NCBI RefSeq assembly: GCF_014270105.1
Contig: NZ_JACNMF010000002.1
Location: 248,001-312,000, forward strand
DNA: 64,000 nucleotides
Direction: 5' to 3'
From: Hyunsoonleella aquatilis
GTDB lineage: Bacteria > Bacteroidota > Bacteroidia > Flavobacteriales > Flavobacteriaceae
In this document: piece by piece, positions 37,035-58,425 of the stretch
How positions within the stretch are numbered: the first letter of the stretch is position 1
Layout of the letters: the number at the start of each line of letters is the position of its first letter
Translations under genes and position numbers: made by a program
The notes under the pieces: generated by a model
What the model was told of the DNA's origin: nothing
Seen by the model: the letters and a program-made list of their open reading frames with translations, nothing else
The model's database searches: none

Positions 37035-37056
37035 AATAATTCTTGGCTTAAAGATG

Positions 37057-38517: not shown

Positions 38518-38528
38518 TTTCAATTTTT

Positions 38529-41500
38529 TTAAAATTCGATGATTAGTCCCGAAGTAATCGTCTTGGACAAGGGCGACCGATTGTTAGCCACGCCGTTAAA
38601 GGCCTGCTCTGGGTCGATCCCTTTGTGCGATTGCCAGGTGAAAATGTTATCGGCCTGCAAAAAGAGCCTCAGTTTGGACAGCCCAATACGCGACACAGTG
38701 GACTCCGGCAGATTGTACCCAAACGTTAAACTCTTCAGCCTTACGTAATCATTTCTAAACAGGAAACGCGTAGAGCGCGACGCGTGATCGTTATTGCTGG
38801 CCAGCAATAATGGAAAATCGGCAATATCCCCGGGGGTTTGCCAAGCATTGAAATTATCTGGATGTGCACTGATACCAGGGTTTTCAAAGGGATTTATTAA
38901 GCCTGAATAGTCATTATCCAACAAATATTGCCCAAAACTAAAGTTGAACAGTACATTTAGGTCAAATTGCTTGTACCTTAAGAAGGATGTGAAGCCCCCT
39001 TCTATATCTGGCAAAGAACTTTTGCCTTGATCGTACCGGGTAGCATCATCATAGCTTTTGGTGGTAACTTTATCGGTTACCACCCCATTGGCATCCACCA
39101 CATCCATAAACCACATGCCACGCCCATCGGCAGGATCTACACCTGCCCACTCGCGAATAAAGAAGTCAAAAATAGAACCTCCGACCACGTAGCGTTTTGA
39201 GCCGTCCAAAATTTCATCCTGTGGCAATTTGGTCCATTCATTCTTATTTAAAGCGAAATTAATTCCGGTACTCCAAGTGAAATCCTGGGTATTGAAATTC
39301 ATAGAACGTAGGGACACCTCCCATCCAAAATTTTTGATGGAACCGATGTTGGTTACAATCTTATTGACGCCCAATGACCTTGGTAAAGGTTTATCCAAAA
39401 TCAAATCGACGGATTCTTTTTCATAGTATTCCACCGTTCCTGAAATTGCCCCGTTGAACAATTCAAAATCGGCACCAATATTTAATGACTCCACTTTTTC
39501 CCATCTTAAATCCACATCCGAAACACCTTCCAGTAAAATTCCTGAATTGCCTTCGTTGACAAACCCTGTCTGGAAAACCGATTGGAAAGGAAAACGACTT
39601 GTAGTCCTGTTGTTTCCCAACTCCCCATAGGAACCGCGAAGCTTTAGGTATGTCAATGTATTGCTTTCGCTTAAAAAATGCTCCTTGGAGACTACCCAAC
39701 TTAAACCCCCGGCCAAAAAGTTACCCCATCGGGTATCCTCATTAAATCTGGTAGAGCCATCCCTTCGGAATGAAAACTCACCAAAATATTTTTCACCAAA
39801 ATTATAGCTTGCTCTACCTAAATAACTATTGATCCTTGAGGTGATCACATTGCCACCTAAGGTTTCGGGTACTGTGGCACTATTTAAATTTTCCACACCG
39901 GGAAGAAATCCAGTACCTTGCGCGTTCAGATCGTCCTGCGTATTGGTATAGGCTTCAGTAATCACATCTACCGAAATATTATGATTGCCAAAACTATTGG
40001 TATAGTTTAAGGATTGGATGGCATTAAGCGTAGTGGTTAAATCCCTGTCCTGATCCACCCTCCCCTGCACATTAGAAGCAATCCCTATCTTGTCATCATC
40101 AAAACTAAAGGAGTCGAACAGATAGTTTTCATAACTTAACCGAGACCTAAATGTGAGTTCCGGAATAATTTTGACTTCAGCAAAAGCATTGGCCAAATAA
40201 TTGGTTCGTATTCGTTTTTCCCTGCCCAGGATTAAACTTGCCAACAGGTTTTCACCTCCAAAAATAGGTCTCGTGTTGTTTACAGGCTGGCCCGGTGCTT
40301 GACCGTTTCCTAAATCGTAAATCAACTCTCCAGCACTATCCCTAACAAAGTCCCCATCAACATCTCGTAAATAAATAGGGTAAATACTGGCAATACCATA
40401 AATCCACGAAATGGCTTGTATAGTGCTACCACTGGTTTGATCGGGGTTATTGGAATTGGAACGTGAAAAACTGGAATTCAAGCCCACTTTAAACCAGTCG
40501 TTTACCTGAGTTTCCAAATTTAAACGCGTTGCCACCCTTTCAAAATTGGATGGGATTACTGGGCCATCTTCATCTAAATAATCAAAGGACAAGAAGTATC
40601 GCGTTTTTTCGCTACCACCAGAAATACTTAAATTATGATTCACCCTGAGATAATCGTTTCTAATGACTTCTTCTTCCCAGTTGGAATCCCACAGCAAATT
40701 GGCACCAGCTACCAAGTTTCCATTGGTATCAATTGGATTTGTAACACTATAGGGATTATAACCCAAATAATCAATGAGTCCGTTGGTAGCGCTTTGGGCC
40801 GCCTCGGAAGCGGTCTGTCCGTTTTCGTATTGATTGGTGTTTTTTAGGGCTTGCCATGTTAACTTTAAATAATCCTCTGGCCCGGCTAAATCGTGGATTC
40901 CAATAGTAGGATTTGAAATTCCGACCTGAGAGCGAATAGTAACCTTTGGTGTAGCACCGACGCTCCCTCTTTTAGTAGTTATCAAAATAACGCCACCTGA
41001 AGCCCTTGAACCGTACAATGCCGAAGACGAGGCATCTTTTAATACCGAAACGCTTTCGATTTGATCCTGGCTTATGGTGTTCAGATTTCCGGAAAATGGA
41101 GCGCCGTCCACAACAATTAAAGGCCCTTGCTCCAAACTCTCACTGGAAATTCCACGTATTCTAATGATTGGATTCGTGCCAGGTTGCCCACCGTCCGTTA
41201 ACAAACTTAATCCTGGAACAGCACCTTGGAGGGCTCTCAAGGGAGAGGTTACCTGTTGGGTCTCGATCACACCACTGGACACCACGTTTACCGCACCCAC
41301 GATAGATTCCCGGGTTTGGGAACCATAGGCGACGACCACCACTTCCTCTAGCGCCGTGGTATCTTCCAGAAGCGTTACACTGATCGTATTTCCTGAGCTA
41401 ACAGTAATCTCCTTGGTAGCATAACCCACAAAACTAAAAACCAAAGTTGCACCTTGACTCACCGTTATGATGTAATTACCATCAAAATCCGTCGTAGTTC

Positions 41501-41654
41501 CCGCAGTTGATCCTTTGATTAGGACCGTAGCTCCAGGCAGGGGAAGATTGTTTTGATCTACAACTTTGCCCGAAACTGCCTTTTCCTGTGCCAATGCAGA
41601 TAGCAAACCAAATATTACCAGCATTAGCGCTAAATAGTAATTTTTTAATCTCAT
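38529..41654 (-). CDS. SusC/RagA family TonB-linked outer-membrane transporter
   Basis: 1041 aa. Signal peptide 1-22 (LLSALAQ). Carboxypeptidase-regulatory-like domain 24-105 (VSGKVVDQNNLPLPGATVLIKG). TonB plug about 115-225 with VVVAYGSQTRESIVGAV and the SusC signature ALYGSRASGGVILITTKRG. Then a 22-strand barrel ending in TSGLIIEF. It imports a SusD-captured ligand using TonB energy. First gene of a three-gene unit (susC, susD, lipoprotein). An AraC-type membrane regulator lies 240 bp upstream. Confidence 0.95.
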   Translation of the reverse strand: MRLKNYYLALMLVIFGLLSALAQEKAVSGKVVDQNNLPLPGATVLIKGSTAGTTTDFDGNYIITVSQGATLVFSFVGYATKEITVSSGNTISVTLLEDTTALEEVVVVAYGSQTRESIVGAVNVVSSGVIETQQVTSPLRALQGAVPGLSLLTDGGQPGTNPIIRIRGISSESLEQGPLIVVDGAPFSGNLNTISQDQIESVSVLKDASSSALYGSRASGGVILITTKRGSVGATPKVTIRSQVGISNPTIGIHDLAGPEDYLKLTWQALKNTNQYENGQTASEAAQSATNGLIDYLGYNPYSVTNPIDTNGNLVAGANLLWDSNWEEEVIRNDYLRVNHNLSISGGSEKTRYFLSFDYLDEDGPVIPSNFERVATRLNLETQVNDWFKVGLNSSFSRSNSNNPDQTSGSTIQAISWIYGIASIYPIYLRDVDGDFVRDSAGELIYDLGNGQAPGQPVNNTRPIFGGENLLASLILGREKRIRTNYLANAFAEVKIIPELTFRSRLSYENYLFDSFSFDDDKIGIASNVQGRVDQDRDLTTTLNAIQSLNYTNSFGNHNISVDVITEAYTNTQDDLNAQGTGFLPGVENLNSATVPETLGGNVITSRINSYLGRASYNFGEKYFGEFSFRRDGSTRFNEDTRWGNFLAGGLSWVVSKEHFLSESNTLTYLKLRGSYGELGNNRTTSRFPFQSVFQTGFVNEGNSGILLEGVSDVDLRWEKVESLNIGADFELFNGAISGTVEYYEKESVDLILDKPLPRSLGVNKIVTNIGSIKNFGWEVSLRSMNFNTQDFTWSTGINFALNKNEWTKLPQDEILDGSKRYVVGGSIFDFFIREWAGVDPADGRGMWFMDVVDANGVVTDKVTTKSYDDATRYDQGKSSLPDIEGGFTSFLRYKQFDLNVLFNFSFGQYLLDNDYSGLINPFENPGISAHPDNFNAWQTPGDIADFPLLLASNNDHASRSTRFLFRNDYVRLKSLTFGYNLPESTVSRIGLSKLRLFLQADNIFTWQSHKGIDPEQAFNGVANNRSPLSKTITSGLIIEF

Positions 41655-41846
41655 AAGTAAGTATTTGAATTAGTCTATGCAGATTGAAGAAAGGGGGGCA
41701 AAAAAGATTTTTTAAGTGACTAATTCAAAAAATTATACTTTACAGGAACAAAGCTTAGTGTAATTCCAATATATTATGTAAAGCTCTTAGTCGCCCCACC
41801 TTTGACAATTGCATTGATAAAAGAAAGGATTATGAAAGTTGACGGG

Positions 41847-41871
41847 GGTAAATCTTATAATAGTTTACCCT
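41847..41871. promoter_or_regulatory. Inverted repeat GGGTAAA-N11-TTTACCC upstream of susC
   Basis: Perfect 7-bp arms with an 11-bp spacer, about 190 bp before the susC ATG. A third TTTACCC copy lies at 41894-41900, overlapping the end of the regulator gene. It looks like a binding site for the neighbouring AraC-type protein; no T-run is present. Confidence 0.5.
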
Positions 41872-41894
41872 ACCGAAGAAAACTTACTTATGGT

Positions 41895-43421
41895 TTACCC
41901 CAGTTTTTTACGAAGTCTTAATTTGGATTGTATATATTCAGAAGGTGTTTGCGAAGTTTCTTTTTTAAAGGCTTTATTAAATGTGACCTTATTGTTGAAG
42001 CCCACCTCATATGCAATATCAATGATATTAAGGCTACCATGAACATCATTATCCATAATGCTGAGGGCTTCCTTAATTCTGAAAGTATTAATTAGTTCGA
42101 AAAAATTCATATCGAAATGCTCATTAATGATTTGGGAGGTGTTATGACGCGTAGTATTTAGTTCTTCAGAAAGCCTCTCCAAATTGATGTTGCTTTGCTT
42201 GTAAATCTTGTCTTCCACAAGTAATTTAACTAAGCTTTCTTTAAGTTCTTTAGAAAGCCCTTTGGTCAGCCCTGACTTTTGGTATTTTTTAGTGAACAGT
42301 CCATCCACAGGGTTAAACTCATTGGTAAAAATACTCGGTTGCACACTCGCTTTGTAGGCAATATAAATCACCATAATAGACATGGCACCAACTTGAAAGT
42401 AACTTAGAAAATCAGAAGTAAACACCAAAATACCACTTACGGGCAAACCATAAATCACATAACTAATGACGTACGCCACATGTAAACGATAAATAGTTTG
42501 TTTCCACTTGTAAATGGGTTGACCGGTATTACTAGAAAGTATCTCATTATTCTTAGTCGCATATTGCAATTTCCGAATCAAAATAGCATAAACGGAAAGT
42601 GAAATTACCTTCGAAATAAAAACAACATACCTATTTATATCATAGGACGTATTGAGTTCTAACATGATTTCAATCTTCTCTGAACCCGACAGTGCATACA
42701 TTGGAAAGAGATACAGCACCAAAATTATATTGGGCACAAAATGCAACGCATCCAAAGGCTTGAACTTGTAATTATGGGTGGCGCTTTTAAAGTAAAAATA
42801 AAGCAACGGACCATATAATAATGCCGTACTTGCCGCCATTAAGTACACATGTGGATACTCATAGCGATAGTTAGACAAATACATGACAAACTCCAAAATA
42901 AATAGGGAATGCACCCCAACAAAACCGCTAATAAACAACTTGGCACGCGTATTGGCCTTACCTGACAAATTGATAATGACCATAAAGAAGAAACCAATCA
43001 GCGAAGCGTAAAAAAATAGAAATGTAACGAAATTGACCTTTTTAACGAACTTGTCGGCAATGGTTTTATAGGCTTTGGAAGTCTTAATGGTATCGTACGC
43101 ACTATCATTTAGAATATCAAAATCCAGTGTATTGTTGATATACTTTTTGGTGTAAAGAATGGAGTTTTCAGGTTGATTGAGTTTTGCATTGAGGAGTGCG
43201 AGATTTTTGAAAATGGCTACCGAATCATGGCGCTGTTCTTTAATAGCTTCTTGGTACAGTACCAATAAATCCTTACTGCCCAAAACTTTATCGGCATCCT
43301 TTTTTTGGATCGAACTATCTATTGGTGCTGGTGAAGTCTCGGAAAACGCAAATAAACCACTTATACTTCCGTAAACCACAAGGCAACAAAAGAAATGCAG
43401 TATTTTTGCTTGGTTGACCAT
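41895..43421 (-). CDS. Membrane-bound AraC-family transcriptional regulator
   Basis: 508 aa from ATG 43421 (an upstream TTG at 43457 would only extend it). Signal-like N-terminus, then a periplasmic segment of about 100 residues with short helical repeats. About six to seven membrane helices (about 125-365) follow. The C-terminal AraC HTH (about 400-500) includes YEVGFNNKVTFNKAFKKETSQTPSEYI. The architecture senses outside the cytoplasm and binds DNA inside. It is adjacent to susC on the same strand, so it probably regulates that locus. Confidence 0.85.
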   Translation of the reverse strand: MVNQAKILHFFCCLVVYGSISGLFAFSETSPAPIDSSIQKKDADKVLGSKDLLVLYQEAIKEQRHDSVAIFKNLALLNAKLNQPENSILYTKKYINNTLDFDILNDSAYDTIKTSKAYKTIADKFVKKVNFVTFLFFYASLIGFFFMVIINLSGKANTRAKLFISGFVGVHSLFILEFVMYLSNYRYEYPHVYLMAASTALLYGPLLYFYFKSATHNYKFKPLDALHFVPNIILVLYLFPMYALSGSEKIEIMLELNTSYDINRYVVFISKVISLSVYAILIRKLQYATKNNEILSSNTGQPIYKWKQTIYRLHVAYVISYVIYGLPVSGILVFTSDFLSYFQVGAMSIMVIYIAYKASVQPSIFTNEFNPVDGLFTKKYQKSGLTKGLSKELKESLVKLLVEDKIYKQSNINLERLSEELNTTRHNTSQIINEHFDMNFFELINTFRIKEALSIMDNDVHGSLNIIDIAYEVGFNNKVTFNKAFKKETSQTPSEYIQSKLRLRKKLG

Positions 43422-43573
43422 TAACTTAGTTTGAAAGTAAGAATTTAAAAACAACAACGGGATATTGTAGCCACTTTTTATGAATTTATAAATTATGTCG
43501 TCGTCAACTCTTAAAAATATCTTAAAATGGTAACCCCCGATAATCTTTTACCTTCTGATTCAAAAAATAAAAT

Positions 43574-47295: not shown

Positions 47296-47667
47296 ATGAG
47301 AAAATTAGTTTTAGGAACAACTTTAGTACTAGCTTTAGGTATGTTTTTTACATCTTGTAGAGATGAAAAGAAATCTGCTGGTGAGCATTTAGACAACGCT
47401 ATCGAAGCCACTGAAGACGCAGCTAAATCTGCAGGTGACGCCGTTAAGGATGCTACAAAAGCAACAGGTGATGCTGTTGAAAACGCTGCTGAAAAAGCTG
47501 GGGATGCCGTTGATAATGCAGTGGACGCAGCAGGTGATGCGGTAAACAATGCTGCTGACAAGGCTGGAGAAACAGTTGATAAAGCTGTAGACGCTGCTGG
47601 AAAAGCCGCTGATGATGCTGCGAATGCCGTTAAAGACGAAGCAAATAAACTGAAAACCGAGCACTAA
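47296..47667 (+). CDS. Ala/Asp-rich repetitive lipoprotein, LEA-like
   Basis: 123 aa. Lipobox MFFTSC (Cys21), after which almost the whole protein is tandem Ala/Asp/Lys/Gly repeats of about 11 residues (KSAGDAVKDAT, EKAGDAVDNAV, DKAGETVDKAV). These should form an amphipathic, reversibly folding helix like group-3 LEA or apolipoprotein proteins. Small Bacteroidota lipoproteins of this kind are often called YtxH- or LEA-like; an envelope stress role is an inference. It is monocistronic with a strong terminator and is likely well expressed. Confidence 0.8.
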   Translation: MRKLVLGTTLVLALGMFFTSCRDEKKSAGEHLDNAIEATEDAAKSAGDAVKDATKATGDAVENAAEKAGDAVDNAVDAAGDAVNNAADKAGETVDKAVDAAGKAADDAANAVKDEANKLKTEH

Positions 47668-47834: not shown

Positions 47835-49082
47835 CTAAAAGCTTCTTTCAGGATGAAAAGCAAATACATCCATCTCAGTCTTTCTCTCAGAAATTATATC
47901 TGAGACTAGCTTTCCAGTTGCTGGGCCTAAGCTCCAACCCATCATAGCATGCCCTGTTGCAATAGTTAGGTTTTTGTATTTTGAAGTTTTACCGATATAA
48001 GGCAAACCATCAGGGGTACAAGGGCGCAAACCGCATTTTGCCTGTTCTTTTTCTTCAATAGTTATATTTAGTTGATTATAATACTTAGCACTTGCTTCCG
48101 CAATGGCTTTTACACGTGCAGGATTAACTCGATGATTAATCCCTGAAAGTTCCATAGTACCAGCAAAACGCGTAAAACCATCCATTGGCGTTACTGCCAC
48201 TTTTGCTTCGCACAATATAGCTGGAATCCTAATGTTAGTGTCTTGCCTTACGTTAATGCTATACCCCTTGCCTGCCTGAACGAGCAATTTTAAACCTAAC
48301 TTTTTTCCAATTTTTGGACTCCAACTTCCAGTTGCCAAAACCACTTCATGGCATGATAACTTTTGGGTACTGGTGATTACTTTTGAAATGTTTTGATTGT
48401 CCATTTCGAAATCAACCACTTCTTCCTTCTTAAAAATTGAAACACCACTTTTTTTCAAGTGAACAATCATTTCTTCCATAAAGTTATTTGGTGTCATGTG
48501 GGCATCAGAGTGGTAGTAAATGGCACCTTTAACATTTATATCTGCTTTAGGCTCTAATTTCGAAACCTCATTTTGAGACAAATGCTCCACCTTAAGCCCT
48601 TCTTGTATGCCACGTTTACCTACCTCCCATTCTTCTTCGCCTACTTTATCTGTCTTGTAGCACATTAAAAGGCCTTTTTTTTCATAGTGAAAACTAAAGT
48701 CTCCGGATTGATTCAAATCTTCATATAATTCCCTACTAAGCAAATTGATATCCAATAATGGTTTTATGGACTTTTCTACTTTTGAAGGTGTTGCAGATTT
48801 TTTAAACGACCAAGACCATTTCAAAAACTCTAAATCTAATCTTGGTTTTATATAAAGCGGACTTTTAGAATTAAACATCCATTTAATGCCTTTTGACAAA
48901 GTACCCGGCGAGGCCATGGAGATAAAATGACTAGGCGTGATGTAACCCGCATTGACATGGGATGCTCCGGAATCCATGTTAGATTTATCAATAACCGTAA
49001 CTTGATGTCCTTCTTTATGAAGATAATAGGCCGAACACAAACCTATAATTCCACCGCCTATAACAATAACAGTTTTGCTCAT
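47835..49082 (-). CDS. FAD-dependent D-amino-acid dehydrogenase, probable D-hydroxyproline dehydrogenase
   Basis: 415 aa of the DadA/DAO family. Dinucleotide-binding VIGGGIIGLCSAYYL at residues 6-20; FAD/substrate-domain motifs HVNAGYITPS, VLATGSWSPKIGKKL, GLRPCTPDGLPYIG, and TGHAMMGWSLGPATGKLV at the end. In the hydroxyproline pathway this enzyme oxidises cis-4-hydroxy-D-proline to pyrroline-4-hydroxy-2-carboxylate. The assignment rests on the epimerase, deaminase and semialdehyde dehydrogenase in the same cluster; generic D-alanine or D-proline dehydrogenase is the alternative. Its ATG abuts the stop of the S9 peptidase (TAAATG). Confidence 0.85.
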   Translation of the reverse strand: MSKTVIVIGGGIIGLCSAYYLHKEGHQVTVIDKSNMDSGASHVNAGYITPSHFISMASPGTLSKGIKWMFNSKSPLYIKPRLDLEFLKWSWSFKKSATPSKVEKSIKPLLDINLLSRELYEDLNQSGDFSFHYEKKGLLMCYKTDKVGEEEWEVGKRGIQEGLKVEHLSQNEVSKLEPKADINVKGAIYYHSDAHMTPNNFMEEMIVHLKKSGVSIFKKEEVVDFEMDNQNISKVITSTQKLSCHEVVLATGSWSPKIGKKLGLKLLVQAGKGYSINVRQDTNIRIPAILCEAKVAVTPMDGFTRFAGTMELSGINHRVNPARVKAIAEASAKYYNQLNITIEEKEQAKCGLRPCTPDGLPYIGKTSKYKNLTIATGHAMMGWSLGPATGKLVSDIISERKTEMDVFAFHPERSF

Positions 49083-51347
49083 TTATAGCTTTAGACTAAA
49101 ATTCCAAATGGGCTTTTCACCTAAGAGGTGTTCAACAAAATAATTCCAACGCCTTTTAATGAAATAATCTCGGTACTTGCCAACATAACCATGTCGCTGA
49201 CTTGGAATTATTAACATGTCAAAATCCTTATCTGCCTTAATTAAAGCTTCAGCAAACTTAAATGTAGCCGAGGGGTTTACATTATCATCTAAACCACCGT
49301 GAACTAACAACAATTTTCCTTTTAAATTTTTGGCATTGGTAATATTTGACACGGCTTCGTAAGTTTCATCCACCGGCCAACCTTGGTACATTTCTGGCCA
49401 CCACGCTTTTTCCATTCTAAAATCATGGTCTCCAGAGCTAGCCACACCAACTTTATAAACATCAGGAAATGCAGTCATGGCCCTTCCTGTGTCATAACCA
49501 CCAGCAGAGTGCCCAAATATGCCAACTTTTTCAGTATCTATCCATTTGTATTTTTCTCCTAAATATTTAATAGCTAAAACATGATCTTCCAAATTATTGC
49601 CCATGTCTTTATAAGAGTGATTTAAAAATGCTTTAGAGCGCCCAGAAGTGCCCAAGCCATCAACTTGCATTATTATAAAACCTAATTCTGAAAGGTCTTG
49701 ATTGTAAAATGCAGAACGGAAAGATTTAGGGAATCTTTGTGTATGCGGTCCTGTGTATGTAGCATCTATTATGGGGTACGATTTTAAGCTATCAAAATTT
49801 GTGGGCTTCCAAATAGCACCGTAAATAGTGGTTTTACCATCTTTAGCTGTAAGCTGAAAAACCTCTGGTGCCTTCCATCCTTTCGAAATGACCTTAGATA
49901 CATCCGCTTGTGTCAATTTTGCTAAAACTTTACCATTTTTAGAACTCCTGACAACCGTTTTTGTTGGAATTTGAACGGTTGAATAATTATCTGCAAAATA
50001 GAGTCCATCCTCAGAAAAGGAAATATCATGGTGTCCTTTTTCGGGGGTCAATAAGGTTACTTCCCCTTTTAAGGATACTTTGTATAACTTTTGATGATAT
50101 GGATTTTCACCATCTTCTTTACCTGATGCCAAGAAATAAACCACGCCATTATCTTCATCGATGTAACTTATATCATTTATAAAATAATTACCGTTTGTAA
50201 GCGGTGTGATTTTACTAGTTATTAAGTCCAAACTATAAAGCTGTCGCCATCCGCTTTGTTGAGAAAGAAATATTAATCTACCTTTCTTTTCTAGAACTTT
50301 ATAATAAAAATTATCAATATTAGTTTCGCTAGTTTCCTTGATTAGGATACGTTCGGAATTTGTGCTCAAATTAACTTCTTTAACAAACGAAGTTTTGAAA
50401 CCTCGCTCCATATAATCAGCGTAAAAAATACCCGAACTATCTGACCAGCGAACTGAAACCTGATTAATATGAGTGTTTTTTGGAAGCTTTGTTTTCACCT
50501 CCTGCTTCGCTTCAATATTATAAAATACAGGTTGCACATGTACCATTGTTGTATCTCCTGGAGAGCCACGGTAGTAGGATAATAATTTTGGCTTGTACAA
50601 AGAATCTATACTCCAATCTAAGAGATACATTTTTTCTGCCTGTTGCAAATCAATAACATTTGTAGCCAGCCATTTGGAGTCTGGAGACCAATTGACCTCA
50701 AAGCGTTTTGGCCGCTCACCATTTTCACCTTCCATTTTATCATACCAACCATAATAACTGGCATACTCATAATTCTTTTTGCCATCATTACTCAGCTTAT
50801 ACTCCTCATCAGTAGCTACAGATTTTATAAACAGGTTATAATCCTTTGTGTAGGCTAGCCATTTTCCATCGGGGGATTTTTTCTCGAATTCATTCTCAAG
50901 TTCTTTTTGCCTTTCTGTCTCTTTCAGCTCGAGCTCGTAAGTCTCTAAATTTAAATGGAATGTTTTATCAAATGCGCTAAAAGAAAGTAATACGTCGTCT
51001 ATTAATTCAATTTTGGACAGATTTAATTCATTGGCGCTTACAGTGTCCTTCAAAATATTACTAAGCGAATTTGCAAGCTTGTTATGATCAAAAAACAGCT
51101 CGGTTTTGTTTCTTTTAAAGCTGTACTTTTTGTACTGCCTCCCTTCATCTGAATACTCAATAAACCACAGGCCAGATTTATTTTTAAACCAGTTAACTTC
51201 CGTATGCAAATTGAAGACTGATTTATTGTAGGCATTGCTATAACTATAGCTTACAGCTCTTTCATAATCTTCCATGGTTAAACTTTGCCCATTACCAAAG
51301 TAAAAACCTAGAAAAGCAAAAAACACAAAATTGATAAGATATTTCAT
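49083..51347 (-). CDS. S9 family serine peptidase (dipeptidyl-peptidase IV/prolyl oligopeptidase type)
   Basis: 754 aa. Signal peptide 1-20. Beta-propeller N-domain about 60-480, then an alpha/beta-hydrolase with Ser614 (GHSAGG), Asp687/688 (HGGLDDNV) and His719 (SQRHG). S9 enzymes cut after proline, and many accept hydroxyproline. The Glu-Glu motif that holds the free N-terminus in true DPP4 is not evident (the region reads YYGWYDKMEGENG), so tri- or oligopeptidase activity is possible. It sits between the dehydrogenase and the epimerase in the hydroxyproline cluster, which suggests periplasmic release of Pro/Hyp peptides. Confidence 0.87.
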   Translation of the reverse strand: MKYLINFVFFAFLGFYFGNGQSLTMEDYERAVSYSYSNAYNKSVFNLHTEVNWFKNKSGLWFIEYSDEGRQYKKYSFKRNKTELFFDHNKLANSLSNILKDTVSANELNLSKIELIDDVLLSFSAFDKTFHLNLETYELELKETERQKELENEFEKKSPDGKWLAYTKDYNLFIKSVATDEEYKLSNDGKKNYEYASYYGWYDKMEGENGERPKRFEVNWSPDSKWLATNVIDLQQAEKMYLLDWSIDSLYKPKLLSYYRGSPGDTTMVHVQPVFYNIEAKQEVKTKLPKNTHINQVSVRWSDSSGIFYADYMERGFKTSFVKEVNLSTNSERILIKETSETNIDNFYYKVLEKKGRLIFLSQQSGWRQLYSLDLITSKITPLTNGNYFINDISYIDEDNGVVYFLASGKEDGENPYHQKLYKVSLKGEVTLLTPEKGHHDISFSEDGLYFADNYSTVQIPTKTVVRSSKNGKVLAKLTQADVSKVISKGWKAPEVFQLTAKDGKTTIYGAIWKPTNFDSLKSYPIIDATYTGPHTQRFPKSFRSAFYNQDLSELGFIIMQVDGLGTSGRSKAFLNHSYKDMGNNLEDHVLAIKYLGEKYKWIDTEKVGIFGHSAGGYDTGRAMTAFPDVYKVGVASSGDHDFRMEKAWWPEMYQGWPVDETYEAVSNITNAKNLKGKLLLVHGGLDDNVNPSATFKFAEALIKADKDFDMLIIPSQRHGYVGKYRDYFIKRRWNYFVEHLLGEKPIWNFSLKL

Positions 51348-51357
51348 CCATTAAAAA

Positions 51358-52368
51358 TTAAATTACCTGAAAACCATGCGCATAGGGATCATCTTCCTCA
51401 TCTATAATTATGGTATTATACCCATAAATTTTAGCCCAGCCTTGAATACTTGGTATGATTGCTGGATTCTCCCTGATAGAGGTTGCAGCCTCCACACGAC
51501 CAATAAATTTACTCCCTATAAAACTCTCATGAATAAATTCCTCGCCCACCTCTAGCTTACCTTTAGCAAAAAGTTGCGCCATTCTTGCCGATGTTCCTGT
51601 ACCGCAAGGACTTCTATCGATAGCTTTATCACCATAAAACACAGCATTTCTTCCAGAAGATGTGGGGTCTATCGGTGTCCCTGTCCAAAGTAAATGGGAT
51701 ACCTCTCTGATGGTCTCGTTTTCCGGATGTATAAATCTATCGGGATATTTTTGATTGATAGCCTCACGTATTACTTGTGAATACTGAATTAGTTTACTTG
51801 CTGAAAAATTTTGAATGCCAGAGAAATTTTTTTGAGGATCAACAATAGCATAAAAGTTTCCACCATAAGCCACGTCAAAAATCAATTCACCTAATTCGGG
51901 ACAATCTATCGTCAAACCTTCCTCGGCCAAATAACTTTTTACATTTGTTAATCGCACCCAATCTACTTTATTACCTGTCTGTTGATATTTGATTTCCACT
52001 AAACCTGCTGGGGCTTCCATTTTAATTTTTCCAGGTGTTTTAGGAGTTATCAAGCCTTCTTCAACAGCAATAGTAATCGTACCAATAGTCCCATGACCAC
52101 ACATGGGTAAACACCCAGAAGTTTCTATAAATAGAATCGCAAAATCGTTTTCGGGATCGTGTGGCGGATACAATATACTCCCGCTCATCATATCGTGACC
52201 TCGAGGTTCAAACATTAAGCCTTTTCGAATCCAATCGAATTCCTTTAAAAAATGCTGTCTCTTTTCGCTCATGTTGGCACCCATCAATTCAGGACCGCCA
52301 TGTTTAATCACTCGAACTGGATTTCCGCAAGTGTGGCCATCAATACAAACAAAAGTACTTCTACTCAT
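51358..52368 (-). CDS. 4-hydroxyproline 2-epimerase (proline racemase family)
   Basis: 336 aa. It has two catalytic Cys: Cys90 in CLPMCGHGTIG and Cys255 in DRSPCGTGTSAR. This is the Cys/Cys pattern of true racemases/epimerases; dehydratases carry Thr at the second site. It inverts C2 of trans-4-hydroxy-L-proline to cis-4-hydroxy-D-proline. Proline racemase is the alternative, but the adjacent deaminase and semialdehyde dehydrogenase point to hydroxyproline. It overlaps the DUF885 peptidase gene by 8 bp. Confidence 0.9.
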   Translation of the reverse strand: MSRSTFVCIDGHTCGNPVRVIKHGGPELMGANMSEKRQHFLKEFDWIRKGLMFEPRGHDMMSGSILYPPHDPENDFAILFIETSGCLPMCGHGTIGTITIAVEEGLITPKTPGKIKMEAPAGLVEIKYQQTGNKVDWVRLTNVKSYLAEEGLTIDCPELGELIFDVAYGGNFYAIVDPQKNFSGIQNFSASKLIQYSQVIREAINQKYPDRFIHPENETIREVSHLLWTGTPIDPTSSGRNAVFYGDKAIDRSPCGTGTSARMAQLFAKGKLEVGEEFIHESFIGSKFIGRVEAATSIRENPAIIPSIQGWAKIYGYNTIIIDEEDDPYAHGFQVI

Positions 52369-54121
52369 TTTTCACACGATCTATATAGCTGTTGACACGA
52401 TTTTCTAAAATGGGCAAAGTAACCGTCCCTTGTTCTAAAACAATCTCATGAAATTCTCGAATATCGAACTTTTGCCCCAGTGCTTCCTCGGCCTTTTTAC
52501 GAAGCGCCCTAATTTTAAGTTCTCCCATTTTATAGGATAGGGCTTGTCCTGGCCAAGAAATATAGCGATCTGTTTCTGTATTTATTTCGTGTATGGATAG
52601 CGCTGTGTTTGAAGCCATATAATCTAACACTTCTTCTCGCGTCCAGCCTTTAGCATGAATACCAGTATCTACCACCAATCTACACGCACGCCACATTTCA
52701 TAAGTAAGTCTTCCAAATTGCTCATAGGGTGTTGTGTACATCCCCATTTCATCCGCCAAAAATTCAGAATATAAGCCCCAACCCTCACCATAAGCAGATA
52801 GGTATAAATCTCTTCTAAATTTGGGGATACTGTCTCCCAATTCGTTATTCAAAGTAATCTGAAGGTGATGGCCTGGCACAGCTTCGTGTACCGTTAATGA
52901 AGGTAACGTGTATAATGGGCGACTAGGCAAATTATAAGTATTTACCCAATAATAACCGGGGTCTGTGCTCTCCTTAGTCGTTTCCACATAGCGCCCTCCA
53001 GTATATTTTGGAGCTATGGCATCTGGCACTGGATTAACACCGTAGGGTTTTCTAGGTAAAGTTTTAAAGAATTTGGGCAATTGTGCGTCGGCTCGCTTAG
53101 ACATGTCTCTGGCTATCATCAACAATTCTTTTGCACTTTTAGCATAAAATTGTTCATCTGATCTTAAAAATTGCAAGAAATCCAGAAAATCCCCATTAAA
53201 ATTAAGGTCGTTTATTATGGCCTGCATTTCAAGCTTTATGCGAGCTACTTCCCTTAGTCCTATTTGGTGGATATCATCAGAGGTGTATTTTGTGCTTGTG
53301 GTGTAGTAATTAATTCTATTTTGATAAAAATCTTTTCCATTGGGTAGGTTTAAAGCTCCTAAACTGGTTCTTGTTTTTGGAAGGTACTCCGTCTCAAAAA
53401 AAGATTTTATTCTCTTGAATTGAGGCGTTACTATGTCTTCAATAACAGCTTTAGCAACTCTAAGGACCGAATCTTTTTGAGACTGAGTTAAACTTTGTGG
53501 AAGATTTTTAAATGGGGAATAATAAAAACTATCTTTATAATCATCAACAATATGGTCATTGTATGTTGACTCATAACCGTTGAAAACAACCCTAGATTGT
53601 GAAATACCTTTTTCTAATCCTTCACGTAAATTCGCGAAATGCTGATCTACAAAATCAGGAATCGCATTAAGCGTATTCAAATAGGTTTTTATTTGATTGT
53701 AATTTGTCAAAGGTCTTACGTTATAGGTTAAATTATTATGAAATCCAGAATCAGAAAGCAATGGATTTAAGTAACATTCAAATCTATAGAAGTCAATTTT
53801 ATCCTGAAGCACAAATTTGAGAAGCTCATAAGAAATCTGCTCAGTTTCGGTTAATTCATCAACATTAATGTTTGATAGCTCTTCCAACTTCGATAGGGCA
53901 AAGTCGGCTTCATTTTTGTAATATTCTTTCGTAAAGACCCCTAAAGGAAATTCTTTTTCGTCAAAACCCTTATGATCCTGATAGCTGTTTATAATATTTT
54001 TTAAAAACTCAGAATTATTGACGTTTTGGGAGGTAGTATGTGAAACAAAAAGCAAAAACGATATGAGCAGAACTATCCTAAAATTTTTGCTTTTGGTAAA
54101 AATAAAATCTATTCTATTCAT
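52361..54121 (-). CDS. DUF885 family exported metallopeptidase-like protein
   Basis: 586 aa. N-terminal hydrophobic signal (about 15-31, ending HTTSQN). A long helical body carries the zinc-type motif His412-Glu413-AVPG-His418-His419 (TVHEAVPGHHLQ), and Glu455 or nearby (AYGEGWGLYSEFL) is a plausible third ligand. DUF885 proteins are presumed peptidases, and one relative cleaves dipeptides. Its place inside a hydroxyproline operon, overlapping the epimerase, suggests it processes Hyp-containing peptides after the S9 enzyme. That role is inferred. Confidence 0.82.
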   Translation of the reverse strand: MNRIDFIFTKSKNFRIVLLISFLLFVSHTTSQNVNNSEFLKNIINSYQDHKGFDEKEFPLGVFTKEYYKNEADFALSKLEELSNINVDELTETEQISYELLKFVLQDKIDFYRFECYLNPLLSDSGFHNNLTYNVRPLTNYNQIKTYLNTLNAIPDFVDQHFANLREGLEKGISQSRVVFNGYESTYNDHIVDDYKDSFYYSPFKNLPQSLTQSQKDSVLRVAKAVIEDIVTPQFKRIKSFFETEYLPKTRTSLGALNLPNGKDFYQNRINYYTTSTKYTSDDIHQIGLREVARIKLEMQAIINDLNFNGDFLDFLQFLRSDEQFYAKSAKELLMIARDMSKRADAQLPKFFKTLPRKPYGVNPVPDAIAPKYTGGRYVETTKESTDPGYYWVNTYNLPSRPLYTLPSLTVHEAVPGHHLQITLNNELGDSIPKFRRDLYLSAYGEGWGLYSEFLADEMGMYTTPYEQFGRLTYEMWRACRLVVDTGIHAKGWTREEVLDYMASNTALSIHEINTETDRYISWPGQALSYKMGELKIRALRKKAEEALGQKFDIREFHEIVLEQGTVTLPILENRVNSYIDRVKNE

Positions 54122-54135
54122 GTCGATTTTGTTGT

Positions 54136-55668
54136 TTAGTACTGGCTTTTCAAAGCCTCTGGTAATAATGCCTTCGGAAAGGATTGATAACTCACAGGGC
54201 GCACCCAGCGTTTTATAGAATTAGTACCAACTGCTGTAAATCTAGAATCGGTTGATGCCGGATAAGGGCCTCCATGTTGCATGGACGGACACACCTCTAC
54301 CCCAGTTGGCACACCGTTAAAAATGAGGCGTCCTACTCTGTCCTCAAGAGCGTCAACAATGTTATGAAGTTTAGCATATTCGTCTTCTTCAGCAATGATA
54401 GTTCCTGTTAACTGACCTTCTAAATTTTCTATTATTTTGATAAGTTCTGCCTCATCCTTAGCTTTTACGACTAATGAAAAAGGGCCGAACACCTCTTGTT
54501 GCAACTTTGGATTGTCTAAAAAGTCTTTTCCTGAGACACTAACAACTTGTGATGGTGCGTAATTGGGTGCAACTTCGGTTTCAATTTTAGCAATAGTTTC
54601 AGCACCTTTTTGAGATGATACCTTGGCGCCATTGTGCACAAAACCCTCTTTAATATTTGGATGCAACATACATTGCGCCTCTATATTTACCGTTTTTTTA
54701 GCCAAATCTTCAATAAAAGCCTGACTGCACTCACCGTCAATAGTCAAAATTAAGCCTGGATTTGTGCAAAATTGCCCTGTACCCAAAGTAATAGAATTGG
54801 CGTATTGCGTTGCCAAAGCTTCGGAACGTTTTTCGAGAGCTTTTGGTGTGATAACCACAGGATTGACACTTCCCATTTCGGCAAAAACTGGTATGGGTTC
54901 TTCGCGTTTAGAAGCCAAATCGAACAACGCTCTTCCGCCCTTAGCGCTCCCTGTAAAACCTACAGCTTTTACTTTTGGGTGCTTTACTAAAGCGGTGCCC
55001 ACCTTAATACTTTTCCCGTTTAAATTTGAAAATACGCCATTGGGCATACCCGTAATTTTCATGGCTTTTATAATTGCACTGGCTACCAATTCGCCTGTAC
55101 CCGAATGCATGGGATGCGATTTTACGATAACTGGACAACCCGACGCCAAAGCACTCGCGGTATCGCCCCCGGCGGTTGAAAATGCCAATGGAAAATTACT
55201 CGCTCCCAATACCACTACTGGCCCTAATGGAATAGAGGTTTTCCTCAAATCTGCTTTGGGTAGTGGCTCTCTGTTGGGTTGTGCTTCGTCAAAAATATTA
55301 TCGCGCCAATCTTCATTATGAATTAAATCCGCAAATGAACGTAACTGAAAAACAGTTCTACCACGTTCACCAATAGCACGTCCTTCAGGTAGTCCAGATT
55401 CAGACATATACATATCGATAAGCGTTTGGTCCAACGCTAAAATTTCATCGGCTATGGCGTTTAAAAATTCTGCACGTTTTGCGCCCGAAACTTTTCGGTA
55501 AACTTTAAAAGCATCCCAAGCTAGGTTTACAGCTTCGTTAATTTCGCTATTTGTTGCATCGTGAAATTTAGTTGGATTCTCGATGTTTAGTTTCGGATTT
55601 ACGGTTTTGTACGTATTAGTTCCTGAGGCTTTTAAGGTTTGCCCGATATAGTTTTTTCCGGTAATCAT
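54136..55668 (-). CDS. Aldehyde dehydrogenase, alpha-ketoglutarate semialdehyde dehydrogenase type
   Basis: 510 aa. NADP-binding SNFPLAFSTAGGDTASALA and FTGSAKGGRALFD, catalytic Glu264 (VFAEMGSVNP) and Cys301 (GTGQFCTNPGL). The N-terminus and the AEMGSVNPV form match 2,5-dioxovalerate dehydrogenases. It oxidises alpha-ketoglutarate semialdehyde to alpha-ketoglutarate, the last step of hydroxyproline catabolism, feeding the TCA cycle. It lies between the DUF885 and DapA-family genes. Confidence 0.9.
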   Translation of the reverse strand: MITGKNYIGQTLKASGTNTYKTVNPKLNIENPTKFHDATNSEINEAVNLAWDAFKVYRKVSGAKRAEFLNAIADEILALDQTLIDMYMSESGLPEGRAIGERGRTVFQLRSFADLIHNEDWRDNIFDEAQPNREPLPKADLRKTSIPLGPVVVLGASNFPLAFSTAGGDTASALASGCPVIVKSHPMHSGTGELVASAIIKAMKITGMPNGVFSNLNGKSIKVGTALVKHPKVKAVGFTGSAKGGRALFDLASKREEPIPVFAEMGSVNPVVITPKALEKRSEALATQYANSITLGTGQFCTNPGLILTIDGECSQAFIEDLAKKTVNIEAQCMLHPNIKEGFVHNGAKVSSQKGAETIAKIETEVAPNYAPSQVVSVSGKDFLDNPKLQQEVFGPFSLVVKAKDEAELIKIIENLEGQLTGTIIAEEDEYAKLHNIVDALEDRVGRLIFNGVPTGVEVCPSMQHGGPYPASTDSRFTAVGTNSIKRWVRPVSYQSFPKALLPEALKSQY

Positions 55669-55740
55669 AATGACTTATTTTTTATTCTTTATCCAAATTT
55701 ACTCGTTTGCAAACTTCCTTTTTTTGATAATTTAAAAGAA

Positions 55741-56697
55741 TCAACTTGTTAAATCCAGTGCTTCAAGTCTTTCTTTTGCCAGAAGATATCTTGCACGGAC
55801 ATCATCAATTTGTTGTTTAGTTAATTTCTTACCAAAAGTACGCAGTCCTCCGGCAATATCATTATGGTGAATTCCCATAGCAAGTTTAAGATATTCCAAA
55901 AGCAGAGGCTGAGCATCCAGATACGATATGGAATTTAAAGCCTGAGAAATTTTATTTGCCTCAGTCCATTCACCATTTAAAACATACTCCTGCATGGTAA
56001 CACTTGCTTTTGGGAAGATATTACCTACACCTGTAATCCCACCACATGCTCCAGCAAGTCCTGCATGTACAGTGACTGTATCTACTCCTGCCAAAACTTT
56101 TAAATCTTTGTTCTCTAGCATCAGCGTTTCAATAATTGAAACATCTATAGTCGATATTTTAAGAGCAGTTACTTTAGGAAGCACAGAAAGTCTTAAAAGA
56201 AGATTAGTTGAAAGCGAATGATATCCAGCTGCATCAGGATTGTTATAAGGCATCATTGTTACACCTACATTGTTTGCAGTTGCTTCGGCATGTTCATAAT
56301 ACTCATACATTTTTGTTTCAGAAGGAACCGTTTTAGTTTTTGGTGGCATGACCATAACTGTATCAACTCCAACTGTTACAAGTCCTTCAATGATTTTGGC
56401 AAGTTCTTCCTTAGTTTCTGCTGAAGCACCACTGATTAACGGAACATTGCATTCTTTAGCAACCTCAGAAAGGGATTTGAGTAAAGAAAGACGCTGTTGG
56501 GTACTTAGGTAGCTATTCTCACCTAGAGTACCAGAACCAACAAGTCCGCTCATTCTGCTTCCTCCCTTTCCTTGAGCTTTTAAAATACCTGCCGCCTGTT
56601 TTTGTGTGGTATCAAAGTCAATTTCAAGAGTGCCAGATTTTGACTCTTTCAACCATGTAAACACTGCAGGCATTACACCATCCCAATTGGATTTCAT
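55741..56697 (-). CDS. DapA-family lyase, probable 1-pyrroline-4-hydroxy-2-carboxylate deaminase
   Basis: 318 aa TIM-barrel protein of the dihydrodipicolinate synthase family. Schiff-base Lys180 (VTALKIS), catalytic Tyr151 (MMPYNNPDAAG) and GSGTLGENSYLS for carboxylate binding. In hydroxyproline pathways this enzyme deaminates and dehydrates HPC to alpha-ketoglutarate semialdehyde, which the next gene oxidises. A housekeeping DapA is unlikely because of the context and the divergent N-terminus. First gene of the cluster, divergent from the AraC regulator. Confidence 0.85.
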   Translation of the reverse strand: MKSNWDGVMPAVFTWLKESKSGTLEIDFDTTQKQAAGILKAQGKGGSRMSGLVGSGTLGENSYLSTQQRLSLLKSLSEVAKECNVPLISGASAETKEELAKIIEGLVTVGVDTVMVMPPKTKTVPSETKMYEYYEHAEATANNVGVTMMPYNNPDAAGYHSLSTNLLLRLSVLPKVTALKISTIDVSIIETLMLENKDLKVLAGVDTVTVHAGLAGACGGITGVGNIFPKASVTMQEYVLNGEWTEANKISQALNSISYLDAQPLLLEYLKLAMGIHHNDIAGGLRTFGKKLTKQQIDDVRARYLLAKERLEALDLTS

Positions 56698-56739
56698 ATT
56701 ATTTTATTCTTTTTAATGAATTGTAAAACTATATAAATA

Positions 56740-56749
56740 TTGCTAGCAA
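56740..56749. promoter_or_regulatory. TTGCTAGCAA palindrome in the divergent hydroxyproline-cluster promoter region
   Basis: A perfect 10-bp palindrome 43 bp before the DapA-family ATG. On the minus strand it overlaps a TTG that is 18 bp before TAGTTTTA (a near -33/-7 pair). It is a candidate operator for the AraC regulator. Confidence 0.4.
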
Positions 56750-56809
56750 CAATACTACTAAATTACTCCTTTATAATATTATATTATCCATTTATTAACA
56801 TATTATTTA

Positions 56810-56817
56810 TATTTTTG
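56810..56817 (+). promoter_or_regulatory. Candidate -7 element (TATTTTTG) of the AraC regulator
   Basis: TATTTTTG 44 bp before ATG 56862; the AT-rich background lowers certainty. Confidence 0.4.
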
Positions 56818-56861
56818 GAGTATTATTCATGTATTTTTAGCATGAAAATTGAGAATAAACC

Positions 56862-57704
56862 ATGAAGGTTTTACCCTTTAAAATACCAAAGCCTGAGTTA
56901 AATGCTGTTGTTTTTCAAGAAGACAGGGGAGCGACTTTTTTTGGAAAATTACATCAGCATGAAGAAATCCAAATTAGTTTAGTCCTTTCGGGTGAGGGCA
57001 ATTTGATAGTTGGAGACACCATTAATCGGTATAAGGAAGGTGATATTTTGGTAATTGGGAGCAATATTCCGCATGTATTTAATAGTGATACTCAAAAGAA
57101 AAAACAATCTAGAATGTTCACGGTATTTTTCTCAAAACGGTTATTGGGCGATGCCTTTTTTAAGTTGAATGAGCTAAGAGAAGTTTCCAATTTTTTTAAG
57201 CGTTCAAAATATGGATTCAAAATTAATTCTAATAAAAGATGGGCTACCGATTTAATTCTAAAAACCGAAACTGCTAGTCAATTAGAGCGTCTTATCATTT
57301 TAATCCAACTCCTAAAAGTTGGAAGCGAATCGCGATACACACCGCTTTCTACGTTCATATATGCCAGGAATTATACTGATAATGAGGGTAACAGAATACG
57401 TGATGTTTTTGAATATACTATGACCCACTACAAAACCGCTATCACTTTGGAAACCATTGCCAATGTTGCTAACATGACCAAAAACGCTTTTTGTAAATAT
57501 TTTAAAAAACGCACCAACAAAACCTATATTACGTTTTTAAATGAAATCCGCGTGGAGCATGCCACACGATTATTGGAGCAACAAACCGATTTGCCGATTG
57601 TTGAAATTGCCGAACTCTCAGGGTTTCAAAATTTATCAAATTTTAACAGGCAATACAAGCAGGTAAAGGGATATGTACCCTCTCAAGTAAGGAAGAGAGT
57701 TTAA
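56862..57704 (+). CDS. AraC-family transcriptional regulator of the hydroxyproline cluster
   Basis: 280 aa. N-terminal cupin (residues 20-90: KLHQHEEIQISLVLSGEGNL, GDILVIGSNIPHVF) for effector binding. C-terminal double HTH (about 180-280: ITLETIANVANMTKNAFCKY, LPIVEIAELSGFQNLSNFNR). It is divergent from the six-gene catabolic unit with 164 bp between starts, the standard arrangement for a pathway activator. The inducer is probably hydroxyproline or a pathway intermediate; inferred. Confidence 0.87.
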   Translation: MKVLPFKIPKPELNAVVFQEDRGATFFGKLHQHEEIQISLVLSGEGNLIVGDTINRYKEGDILVIGSNIPHVFNSDTQKKKQSRMFTVFFSKRLLGDAFFKLNELREVSNFFKRSKYGFKINSNKRWATDLILKTETASQLERLIILIQLLKVGSESRYTPLSTFIYARNYTDNEGNRIRDVFEYTMTHYKTAITLETIANVANMTKNAFCKYFKKRTNKTYITFLNEIRVEHATRLLEQQTDLPIVEIAELSGFQNLSNFNRQYKQVKGYVPSQVRKRV

Positions 57705-57838: not shown

Positions 57839-58216
57839 TAACGTGGTCTACCTAGACTGTATAAAGCCTTTAATTCGTGAAGTTCGTTATTATGTATTGA
57901 AGAAAGGTCTTTGGTTTCGGTTTAGCAATGGTATATTGAATATGAACAAAAGCGGCTCTGATTCTCTACTTTTAACTGGTTCCTAATTTGGAAAGAGATG
58001 ACATAGTATCAAGAACCCAGTACAATTGGTTATTGTAAGAACAGCTAAATTAACCAAAATATAAAAGATTGGAATTTGGATTTTCAAAAAACAATTATGG
58101 TTCCCAAATCACTTATAAAATACTTTTGAGGCTACATAACAATACCGAAATCATACCAAAATGATATTTGACAAAATAAAAACCCTTGAAAATCAAACGA
58201 TTAACAAGGGTTACAG
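57839..58216. other. 378-bp intergenic region before the tRNA genes
   Basis: No convincing gene. A plus-strand frame at about 57843-57986 is open for some 47 codons without a plausible start and may be decayed coding sequence linked to the remnant next to it. The rest is AT-rich and holds no clear hairpin. Confidence 0.5.
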
Positions 58217-58301
58217 TACTGAAGGCGGGACTTGAACCCGCACGGCCATAATGGCCATTGGATTTTAAGTCCAACGTGTCTACCAATTCCACCACTTCAG
58301 C
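58217..58301 (-). tRNA. tRNA-Leu (anticodon UAA)
   Basis: Class II tRNA of 85 nt with a long variable arm (TGGCC-atta-TGGCC). Anticodon loop ACTTAAAAT gives UAA; T-loop GTTCAAGTC. Acceptor stem GCTGAAG/CTTCAGT with discriminator A. The 3' CCA is not encoded. Confidence 0.93.
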
Positions 58302-58353
58302 ATAATTCGACAGTGCTATTGCACATTGAATTGGTACATTTTGAAAAAATCAG

Positions 58354-58425
58354 AGCGAAAGACGGGATTTGAACCCGCGACCCTCACCTTGGCAAGGTGA
58401 TGCTCTACCCCTGAGCTACTTTCGC
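58354..58425 (-). tRNA. tRNA-Gly (anticodon GCC)
   Basis: 72 nt. Acceptor GCGAAAG/CTTTCGC, D-arm GCTCAGGGGTAGAGC, anticodon CTTGCCAAG, T-arm CGGGTTCAAATCCCG. CCA not encoded. It lies 52 bp upstream of tRNA-Leu on the same strand. Confidence 0.95.

Follow-up and report, generated by a model that had tools for sequence, protein, structure and literature searches.

How do Bacteroidota, leading polymer degraders, free and use the hydroxyproline (Hyp) that is abundant in collagen and in the wall glycoproteins of plants and algae? We found little on this in open-access print. The question is raised by one operon of Hyunsoonleella aquatilis, in which genes for the breakdown of 4-hydroxyproline are interleaved with genes for two peptidases that look exported. 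The operon lies in a stretch of 64,000 nucleotides, analysed as a whole and called the window here (G000:C12:248001-312000, in a genome of 3.93 Mb); all positions are given in window coordinates. We consider it likely that the operon is induced as a unit to use peptide-bound hydroxyproline, and base this on its gene content, on the recurrence of peptidase genes beside the pathway in related genera, and on a predicted operator that these genera share. The elements concerned are:

56862-57704, plus strand: AraC-family regulator, divergent from the operon (HTH_18 74 bits, Cupin_2 33 bits)
56763-56788, minus strand: predicted operator between the AraC gene and the operon, a direct repeat with a 21-bp period (one mismatch to the pattern)
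55741-56697, minus strand: DapA-family (DHDPS) gene, first of the operon (Pfam DHDPS 86 bits)
54136-55668, minus strand: aldehyde dehydrogenase, probable alpha-ketoglutarate semialdehyde dehydrogenase (Pfam Aldedh 179 bits)
52361-54121, minus strand: DUF885 protein, predicted exported metallopeptidase (PF05960 521 bits)
51358-52368, minus strand: 4-hydroxyproline 2-epimerase, HypE (Pro_racemase 422 bits, NF010578 590 bits)
49083-51347, minus strand: S9 protein resembling DPP4 and prolyl tripeptidyl peptidase, predicted exported serine peptidase (PF00326 146 bits, PF00930 (DPPIV_N) 142 bits)
47835-49082, minus strand: protein of the flavin adenine dinucleotide (FAD)-dependent D-amino-acid dehydrogenase family, probable D-hydroxyproline dehydrogenase (DAO 222 bits)

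Open reading frame (ORF) calls place the six minus-strand genes from 56697 down to 47835, with intergenic gaps along transcription of 72, 14, -8, 10 and 0 bp; the negative value is an 8-bp overlap of the DUF885 stop with the epimerase start. The original prediction, made from the letters of this stretch, described six same-strand genes with small gaps or overlaps facing a divergent AraC gene, and ORFs, Pfam matches and coordinates bear it out.

Pathway enzymes

The original prediction also assigned four of the genes to the trans-4-hydroxy-L-proline route. For the epimerase this holds at the level of a specific model: the protein passes NCBIfam NF010578 for 4-hydroxyproline epimerase (590 bits, cut-off 376) and fails the models for proline racemase (302 vs cut-off 556) and trans-3-hydroxyproline dehydratase (271 vs 540). 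The alignment shows the two cysteine motifs MCGHG and DRSPCGTG, which we take to be catalytic, and the epimerase is the single Pro_racemase match in its own genome. The dehydrogenase, the HPC deaminase and the alpha-ketoglutarate semialdehyde (KGSA) dehydrogenase are identified at the family level, and their enzymatic steps are taken from the established pathway. For the FAD enzyme the best NCBIfam matches are D-amino-acid dehydrogenase models, below cut-off. For the aldehyde dehydrogenase they are the 2,5-dioxovalerate and KGSA dehydrogenases, far below cut-off; its nearest PDB sequences are 3v4c (1.9e-131) and 1eyy (1.7e-127), which we assume to mark the hydroxyproline-type KGSADH-III group, and the solved KGSA dehydrogenase 5x5t is much more distant. 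The DapA-type protein keeps a Tyr and a Lys column, presumably catalytic, in alignments with DHDPS and with the DapA type that most relatives carry.

The two peptidases

The S9 and DUF885 genes do lie between pathway genes, as had been predicted. Both products had also been given signal peptides, and their N-terminal hydrophobic stretches do resemble signal peptides, as judged by eye and not by a prediction program. In the DUF885 protein HE..PGH and EGW are invariant across 19 sequences, and HE..PGH with a downstream E is invariant in both DUF885 types that we met (see below); these residues suggest a metallopeptidase. Its predicted structure (predicted local distance difference test score, pLDDT, 87) is nearest to 3o0y, 3iuk and 3u24, which are DUF885 structures described as of unknown function or as putative lipoproteins, and then, very weakly, to angiotensin-converting enzyme (E 0.22). 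The locus offers this family, which has no assigned function, a concrete role that can be tested.

The S9 protein has S614, D687 and H719 invariant in 17 sequences, which we take to be its Ser-Asp-His triad. The nearest folds to its predicted structure (pLDDT 84) are DPP4 (2ecf) and prolyl tripeptidyl aminopeptidase (2eep), with which it shares fold and triad at 22-23% identity. A loop, GWxDxxEGENGERP, is kept in S9 proteins of the window type and absent from a second S9 type that is linked to glycoside hydrolase family 127 (GH127) in relatives, and because only the window type has it the two types may cut differently. The loop may be placed where DPP4 carries its N-terminus-binding glutamates, a position judged without superposition.

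One further candidate extracellular peptidase was seen in a relative (L152:354-2579): a DUF6055 protein with HExxH, a type-IX secretion tail and the operator upstream. Its search against the PDB gave no credible relative (five matches, best E 0.095).

Conservation in related genera

The original prediction proposed comparing gene neighbourhoods across the family. We searched 199 genomes from 198 genera of this family for the epimerase at E<=1e-60, which gave 105 positive genomes. Up to 20 kb was fetched around 100 of the other 104 HypE genes; those of G066, G079, G016 and G081 lie outside these 100, and three of these four loci were inspected separately. Gene content was scored in the 99 loci with a called epimerase ORF. 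In the remaining one, L117, the epimerase is masked by a longer ORF on the opposite strand, and this locus was added by hand for the peptidase counts, which therefore cover 100. Across the phylum, HypE matches occur in 81 of 395 genomes, four of them at 36-39% identity only.

The core pathway is nearly constant among the 99 scored loci: an aldehyde dehydrogenase is present in 94, a DAO-family gene in 91, a DapA gene of either type in 97 and an AraC gene of the same cluster as that of the window in 69. Since the core gene order recurs in most of these loci from related genera, it reflects more than chance. The window has the minority DapA type, a point overlooked in the original prediction. This type is found in 11 of the 99 loci, the majority type in 86 and both together in none; in the fetched loci the two substitute for each other. 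In four of the 11 the gene is inverted beyond the AraC gene (L035, L038, L048 and L061 are listed for the DapA swap).

Peptidases recur beside this core. Counting genes on the same strand within 9 ORFs of HypE, a measure of proximity that does not imply co-transcription, 58 of 100 loci have at least one peptidase of the families DUF885 (46 loci), S9 (19), M24 (15) or S37 (2), as verified with Pfam on representatives; the M24 genes near the pathway are of the aminopeptidase-P or prolidase type. The arrangement of the window is itself common. DUF885 is present in 46 of the 99 scored loci and immediately precedes HypE in 43. Of 42 pairs of adjoining DUF885 and HypE genes, 36 show an overlap of the DUF885 stop with the called HypE start, and in 17 this overlap has the same 8 bp as in the window; because each ORF was called at its greatest length, overlaps other than those of 8 bp may be too long. 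S9 occurs in 18 of the 99 loci and directly behind HypE in 12. The two peptidases also keep company with each other, DUF885 being found in 11 of 12 loci with the window-type S9 vs 35 of 87 without it (p=0.001).

The association extends to whole genomes, in searches capped at five S9 or six DUF885 candidates for each genome. Specifically, the DUF885 clade of the window (at least 55% identity; next match 45%, the remainder at most 43%) is found in 63 of the 199 genomes, namely 53 of 105 HypE-positive vs 10 of 94 HypE-negative ones (p=1e-9). The S9 ortholog (at least 54% identity) is found in 17 genomes, 16 of which are HypE-positive and 14 of which have it adjoining HypE (Fisher p=2e-4).

A shared predicted operator

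The regions upstream of the AraC genes share GGATAATATAGTA, followed by a second GGATAA half-site 21 bp on. The first half-site is found with at most 3 mismatches in 57 of 71 AraC upstream regions, a count made without a shuffle control. In the window, the site at 56763-56788 has one mismatch to the pattern GRTAATATARTAN9GNTAA, where 0.03 such sites are expected and 3 of 100 shuffles gave a match. Because the pattern was derived from these same loci, its recurrence at the core operon is partly circular evidence, which does not apply to the sites found elsewhere.

Across all 199 family genomes the exact pattern gives 52 sites in 43 genomes, against 5 sites for a reversed control. It occurs in 39 of 105 HypE-positive vs 4 of 94 HypE-negative genomes (p=4e-9), and for 35 of the 52 sites HypE is no more than 12 kb away. 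An initial test on 45 of the 105 HypE-positive genomes, mostly chosen for a site already seen, had given 36 sites in 29 genomes (reversed control 2). Among the four HypE-negative carriers of a site, G062 was inspected and shows AraC-DapA-ALDH-DUF885 at the end of a contig.

Which genes does the site precede? Allowing one mismatch, 209 fetched loci contain 87 sites after de-duplication by sequence (reversed control 3, one of them before an S9 gene), and because these loci were chosen for HypE or S9 the shares are not genome-wide rates: 67 sites precede DapA, ALDH or DUF885, including the inverted window-type DapA, 7 a second-type S9, 6 SusC and 4 other genes, with 2 before no gene and 1 inside an ORF. 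The inverted DapA has its own copy of the operator in three of the four loci and lacks it in the fourth, that of Algibacter pacificus. That genome has one operator before DUF885-HypE-S9-DAO and another before a SusC/SusD pair. Similarly, a Pontibacter has one before SusC and another before the core; in Flavobacterium soyae and Flagellimonas oceanensis the core and S9-GH127-DUF885 are each preceded by a site. In G030 a SusC-SusD-AraC-S9-GH127-DUF5695 locus lies on another contig than HypE, with its own AraC relative and sites before SusC and before S9.

In HypE-positive genomes 13 exact sites are away from HypE. They include the two of G030 just described. Two more, in G075, share a contig with the GH127 gene of that genome and lie upstream of it, and one in G061 precedes a GH2 gene. 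The site in G094 is by an S9-family gene in the opposite orientation, that in G115 has unrelated genes only and that in G085 is inside an ORF; one is in G100, and the other four are in G130, G016, G055 and G066. In L225/L159 (the site of G100) and in L160 (G143) an operator with M24 or GH2 genes nearby is found a short way upstream of an M1-peptidase-like gene and is oriented opposite to it.

The genome of H. aquatilis has no exact site, and we sought a second regulon member there at lower stringency. At two mismatches it has 27 sites vs 30 for a control pattern, i.e., noise, and two extra one-mismatch sites adjoin unrelated genes, so no such member is proposed. In other genomes the operator is a simple handle for finding the remaining regulon, including the importer.

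Proposed mechanism

From its position and its co-occurrence with these genes, the 21-bp repeat would be bound by the AraC-family protein, which would then turn the operon on. The DUF885 and S9 proteins would trim Hyp oligopeptides in the periplasm, as suggested by their families, their exported-looking N-termini and their co-occurrence, and Hyp or small Hyp-peptides would reach the cytosol via a carrier. There, the epimerase would make cis-4-hydroxy-D-proline and the FAD enzyme would oxidise it; deamination by the DapA-family enzyme would then yield alpha-ketoglutarate semialdehyde, which the aldehyde dehydrogenase would turn into alpha-ketoglutarate.

There is also a broader reading, which we hold tentatively and think somewhat more likely to be wrong than right. 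In it, an AraC-type protein and one operator would define a Bacteroidota hydroxyproline regulon that puts an outer-membrane importer, the arabinosidases, both peptidases (DUF885 and S9) and the hydroxyproline pathway under common control; Hyp-rich glycoproteins would then be eaten whole, backbone and sugar side chains alike, as one programme. DUF885 would then be a Hyp-peptide metallopeptidase, and the operon of the window a reduced, peptide-only form.

Importer and polymer target

That the cluster has no importer of its own was stated in the original prediction, and we found none within it either. A SusC/SusD pair that is accompanied by a separate AraC-type gene does lie 6.2 kb downstream on the same strand (window 36330-43457), in a locus that also has a weak DUF4843 match below cut-off:

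41895-43457, same strand as the operon: AraC-type regulator of the SusCD locus
38529-41654, same strand as the operon: SusC
37057-38523, same strand as the operon: SusD

We considered this pair as the importer and rejected it. It has no operator site at up to 2 mismatches, and its SusC is 25% identical to the operator-bearing SusC of A. pacificus. It is possibly a separate import locus.

What polymer would such a unit serve? The original prediction named collagen-like or extensin-like proteins, and for the window neither is borne out. The genome of H. aquatilis gave no match to M9 collagenase, in a search in which the control genomes gave none either; the same search over the 199 family genomes gave a single match (G123:C1:974645-975367), about 11 kb from the 4-Hyp epimerase of that genome. 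H. aquatilis has one GH127 gene (662 aa), on another contig and unlinked to the operon, and the operon contains no carbohydrate-active enzyme (CAZyme). SusC/SusD together with CAZymes in the same locus or regulon were found in relatives such as F. soyae and F. oceanensis and not in the window.

Relatives give clues in both directions. In one group the core is joined by the second S9 type and a GH127 beta-L-arabinofuranosidase (G127, G061, G100, G143, G117 and G094; also F. soyae, Salegentibacter agarivorans, F. oceanensis and a Galbibacter sp.). All members except G061 have SusC and/or SusD, all except G117 carry DUF885 of another type, about 20% identical to that of the window, and single loci hold GH43, GH42, GH36, GH2 or GH97 genes. 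GH127, GH43 and GH121 enzymes are described as stripping arabinose from Hyp in the parts of PMC6085000 that we draw on, and GH127 as releasing it from the Hyp of extensin-type glycoproteins there and in corresponding parts of PMC4454575. Since GH127 enzymes do this, the GH127-bearing relatives probably consume hydroxyproline-rich glycoproteins. If true, their loci would be sugar-utilisation loci that also eat the protein they strip.

Other relatives instead suggest collagen. Specifically, in L033 (4497-6516) and L078 (1377-3407) the operon faces a gene resembling trans-3-hydroxyproline dehydratase (best model, below cut-off), and the same stretches hold a delta1-pyrroline-2-carboxylate reductase above its cut-off. 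Second Pro_racemase-type copies, 35-37% identical, are found in these two loci and also in L055, L233 and L249. These trans-3-Hyp genes, like the M9 gene near one epimerase, are suggestive of collagen as the source. The window shows neither GH127 linkage nor a trans-3-Hyp or M9 sign.

Could the target of H. aquatilis nevertheless be an arabinosylated, hydroxyproline-rich glycoprotein of plants or algae, and not collagen or mixed Hyp-peptides? GH127 proteins of about 1,000-1,050 aa would favour this: 10 genomes out of 199 have one, each of them HypE-positive, and in 6 it belongs to the HypE locus (p=0.002, for a length class chosen after the fact). The operator before S9-GH127 operons, the activities of the arabinosidases and the rarity of M9 in the family agree with it. 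However, GH127 of any kind is not enriched with HypE (23 of 39 GH127 genomes vs 105 of 199), the CAZyme-free operon and the unlinked, shorter GH127 of H. aquatilis do not fit, and the trans-3-Hyp genes that some relatives have next to the operon point to collagen. We regard this target as rather unlikely for the organism itself.

Do the peptidases belong to the unit?

Several observations weigh against reading the operon as a unit for peptide-bound hydroxyproline. Besides the missing carrier, the FAD, aldehyde dehydrogenase and DapA proteins are all under the cut-offs of the 25 NCBIfam models listed, and the genome-wide associations rest on a few candidates per genome. None of the counted peptidase types is found in 42 of the 100 HypE loci. 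DUF885 stands alone in 11 genomes (6 without HypE, 5 with HypE elsewhere), several of them in the same chromosomal neighbourhood. Operon parts persist without the epimerase in G069, G040 and G048 (the assemblies of G048 and G062 are incomplete), and remnant operons without it keep DUF885 together with S9, ALDH or DAO in L132 (Paucihalobacter ruber, also L232), L230 (Psychroserpens burtonensis) and L133. For the best 80 S9 relatives, a HypE homologue is in the locus of 17, one at 35% identity only, with several loci cut at contig ends and with some overlap between these 80 named loci and the other locus set (L228 = G153, L232 = G069, L265 = G005); relatives of the window-type S9 that lack HypE include some from Algoriphagus, Lewinella and Saprospiraceae. 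Finally, parsimony changes on the HypE tree are close to those for shuffled labels (DUF885 32 vs 33.4, S9 17 vs 17.8, DapA2 10 vs 11.7), and therefore either operon gene content turns over quickly or the HypE tree is too weak; these counts leave inheritance and turnover of the peptidases unseparated. The peptidases are thus not strictly tied to the hydroxyproline pathway. The peptide-to-alpha-ketoglutarate unit of the original prediction is well supported by their co-occurrence with HypE.

The lone DUF885 genes, the parsimony counts, the S9 relatives lacking HypE and the 42 loci with none of the counted peptidases would also suit an operon for free hydroxyproline only, in which DUF885 and S9 were general peptidases that had drifted in and been kept by chance or by a shared chromosomal position. 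We find this improbable. Synteny alone was set aside because the association with HypE is significant for both peptidases and because HypE is accompanied elsewhere by another DUF885 type and another S9 type, the latter with a copy of the operator; the 8-bp overlap common to 17 loci and the window, and the joint occurrence of DUF885 with the window-type S9, likewise argue against drift. Use of peptide-bound hydroxyproline remains the better account of the operon. That it mainly serves proline-rich peptides, its epimerase and dehydrogenase acting on proline or other D-amino acids, is very improbable: the best-fitting models of the FAD enzyme and the S9 and M24 families, which to our knowledge are often proline-specific, would suit it, but the epimerase matches the 4-Hyp model at 590 bits vs 302 for a proline racemase model with a cut-off of 556, and DapA-type and semialdehyde-dehydrogenase genes suit, in the established pathway, a hydroxylated ring.

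Relation to known systems

The published neighbourhood of 4HypE has the epimerase with DAAO-, DHDPS- and ALDH-family neighbours, the same as in the window (PMC4113996). In the passages of that paper covered here a peptidase is named once, in a trans-3-Hyp dehydratase cluster of Bacilli, and DUF885, S9 and an operator like those of the window do not appear. A collagen cluster described for the Colwellia metagenome-assembled genome BB5 likewise joins peptidases with the hydroxyproline pathway (PepQ, YpdF, 4-Hyp epimerase, D-Hyp dehydrogenase, deaminase and KGSA dehydrogenase; PMC7883544, in part), so a peptide-to-alpha-ketoglutarate unit is of a kind already published. According to the same part of that source, the Colwellia cluster has an M9 collagenase, a TonB-dependent receptor, a major facilitator superfamily (MFS) carrier and PutR, whereas that of the window has DUF885, S9 and an AraC-family regulator, with no M9 and no carrier. 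Arabinosidases of the HypBA1/HypBA2/HypAA type (PMC6085000, in part) have counterparts in related HypE loci, as GH127 and in one genome GH43. Unlike the HypBA1/HypBA2/HypAA systems as presented there, these loci also carry hydroxyproline catabolism, SusCD and peptidases; the cluster of the window has no arabinosidase. For the link of DUF885 or S9 to hydroxyproline, the operator and GH127-Hyp loci, we found no paper in the open-access literature, judged mostly from listings. What appears to be new is the operator common to these loci and, in relatives, the connection with glycoproteins of plant type.

Neighbouring genes

Beyond the AraC gene lie tRNA-Leu(taa) and tRNA-Gly(gcc), on the minus strand (window 58216-58425). 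On the other side of the operon, window 47296-47667 encodes a small lipoprotein-like protein with Ala/Asp-rich repeats, whose matches to apolipoprotein and late embryogenesis abundant (LEA) models are weak and below cut-off.

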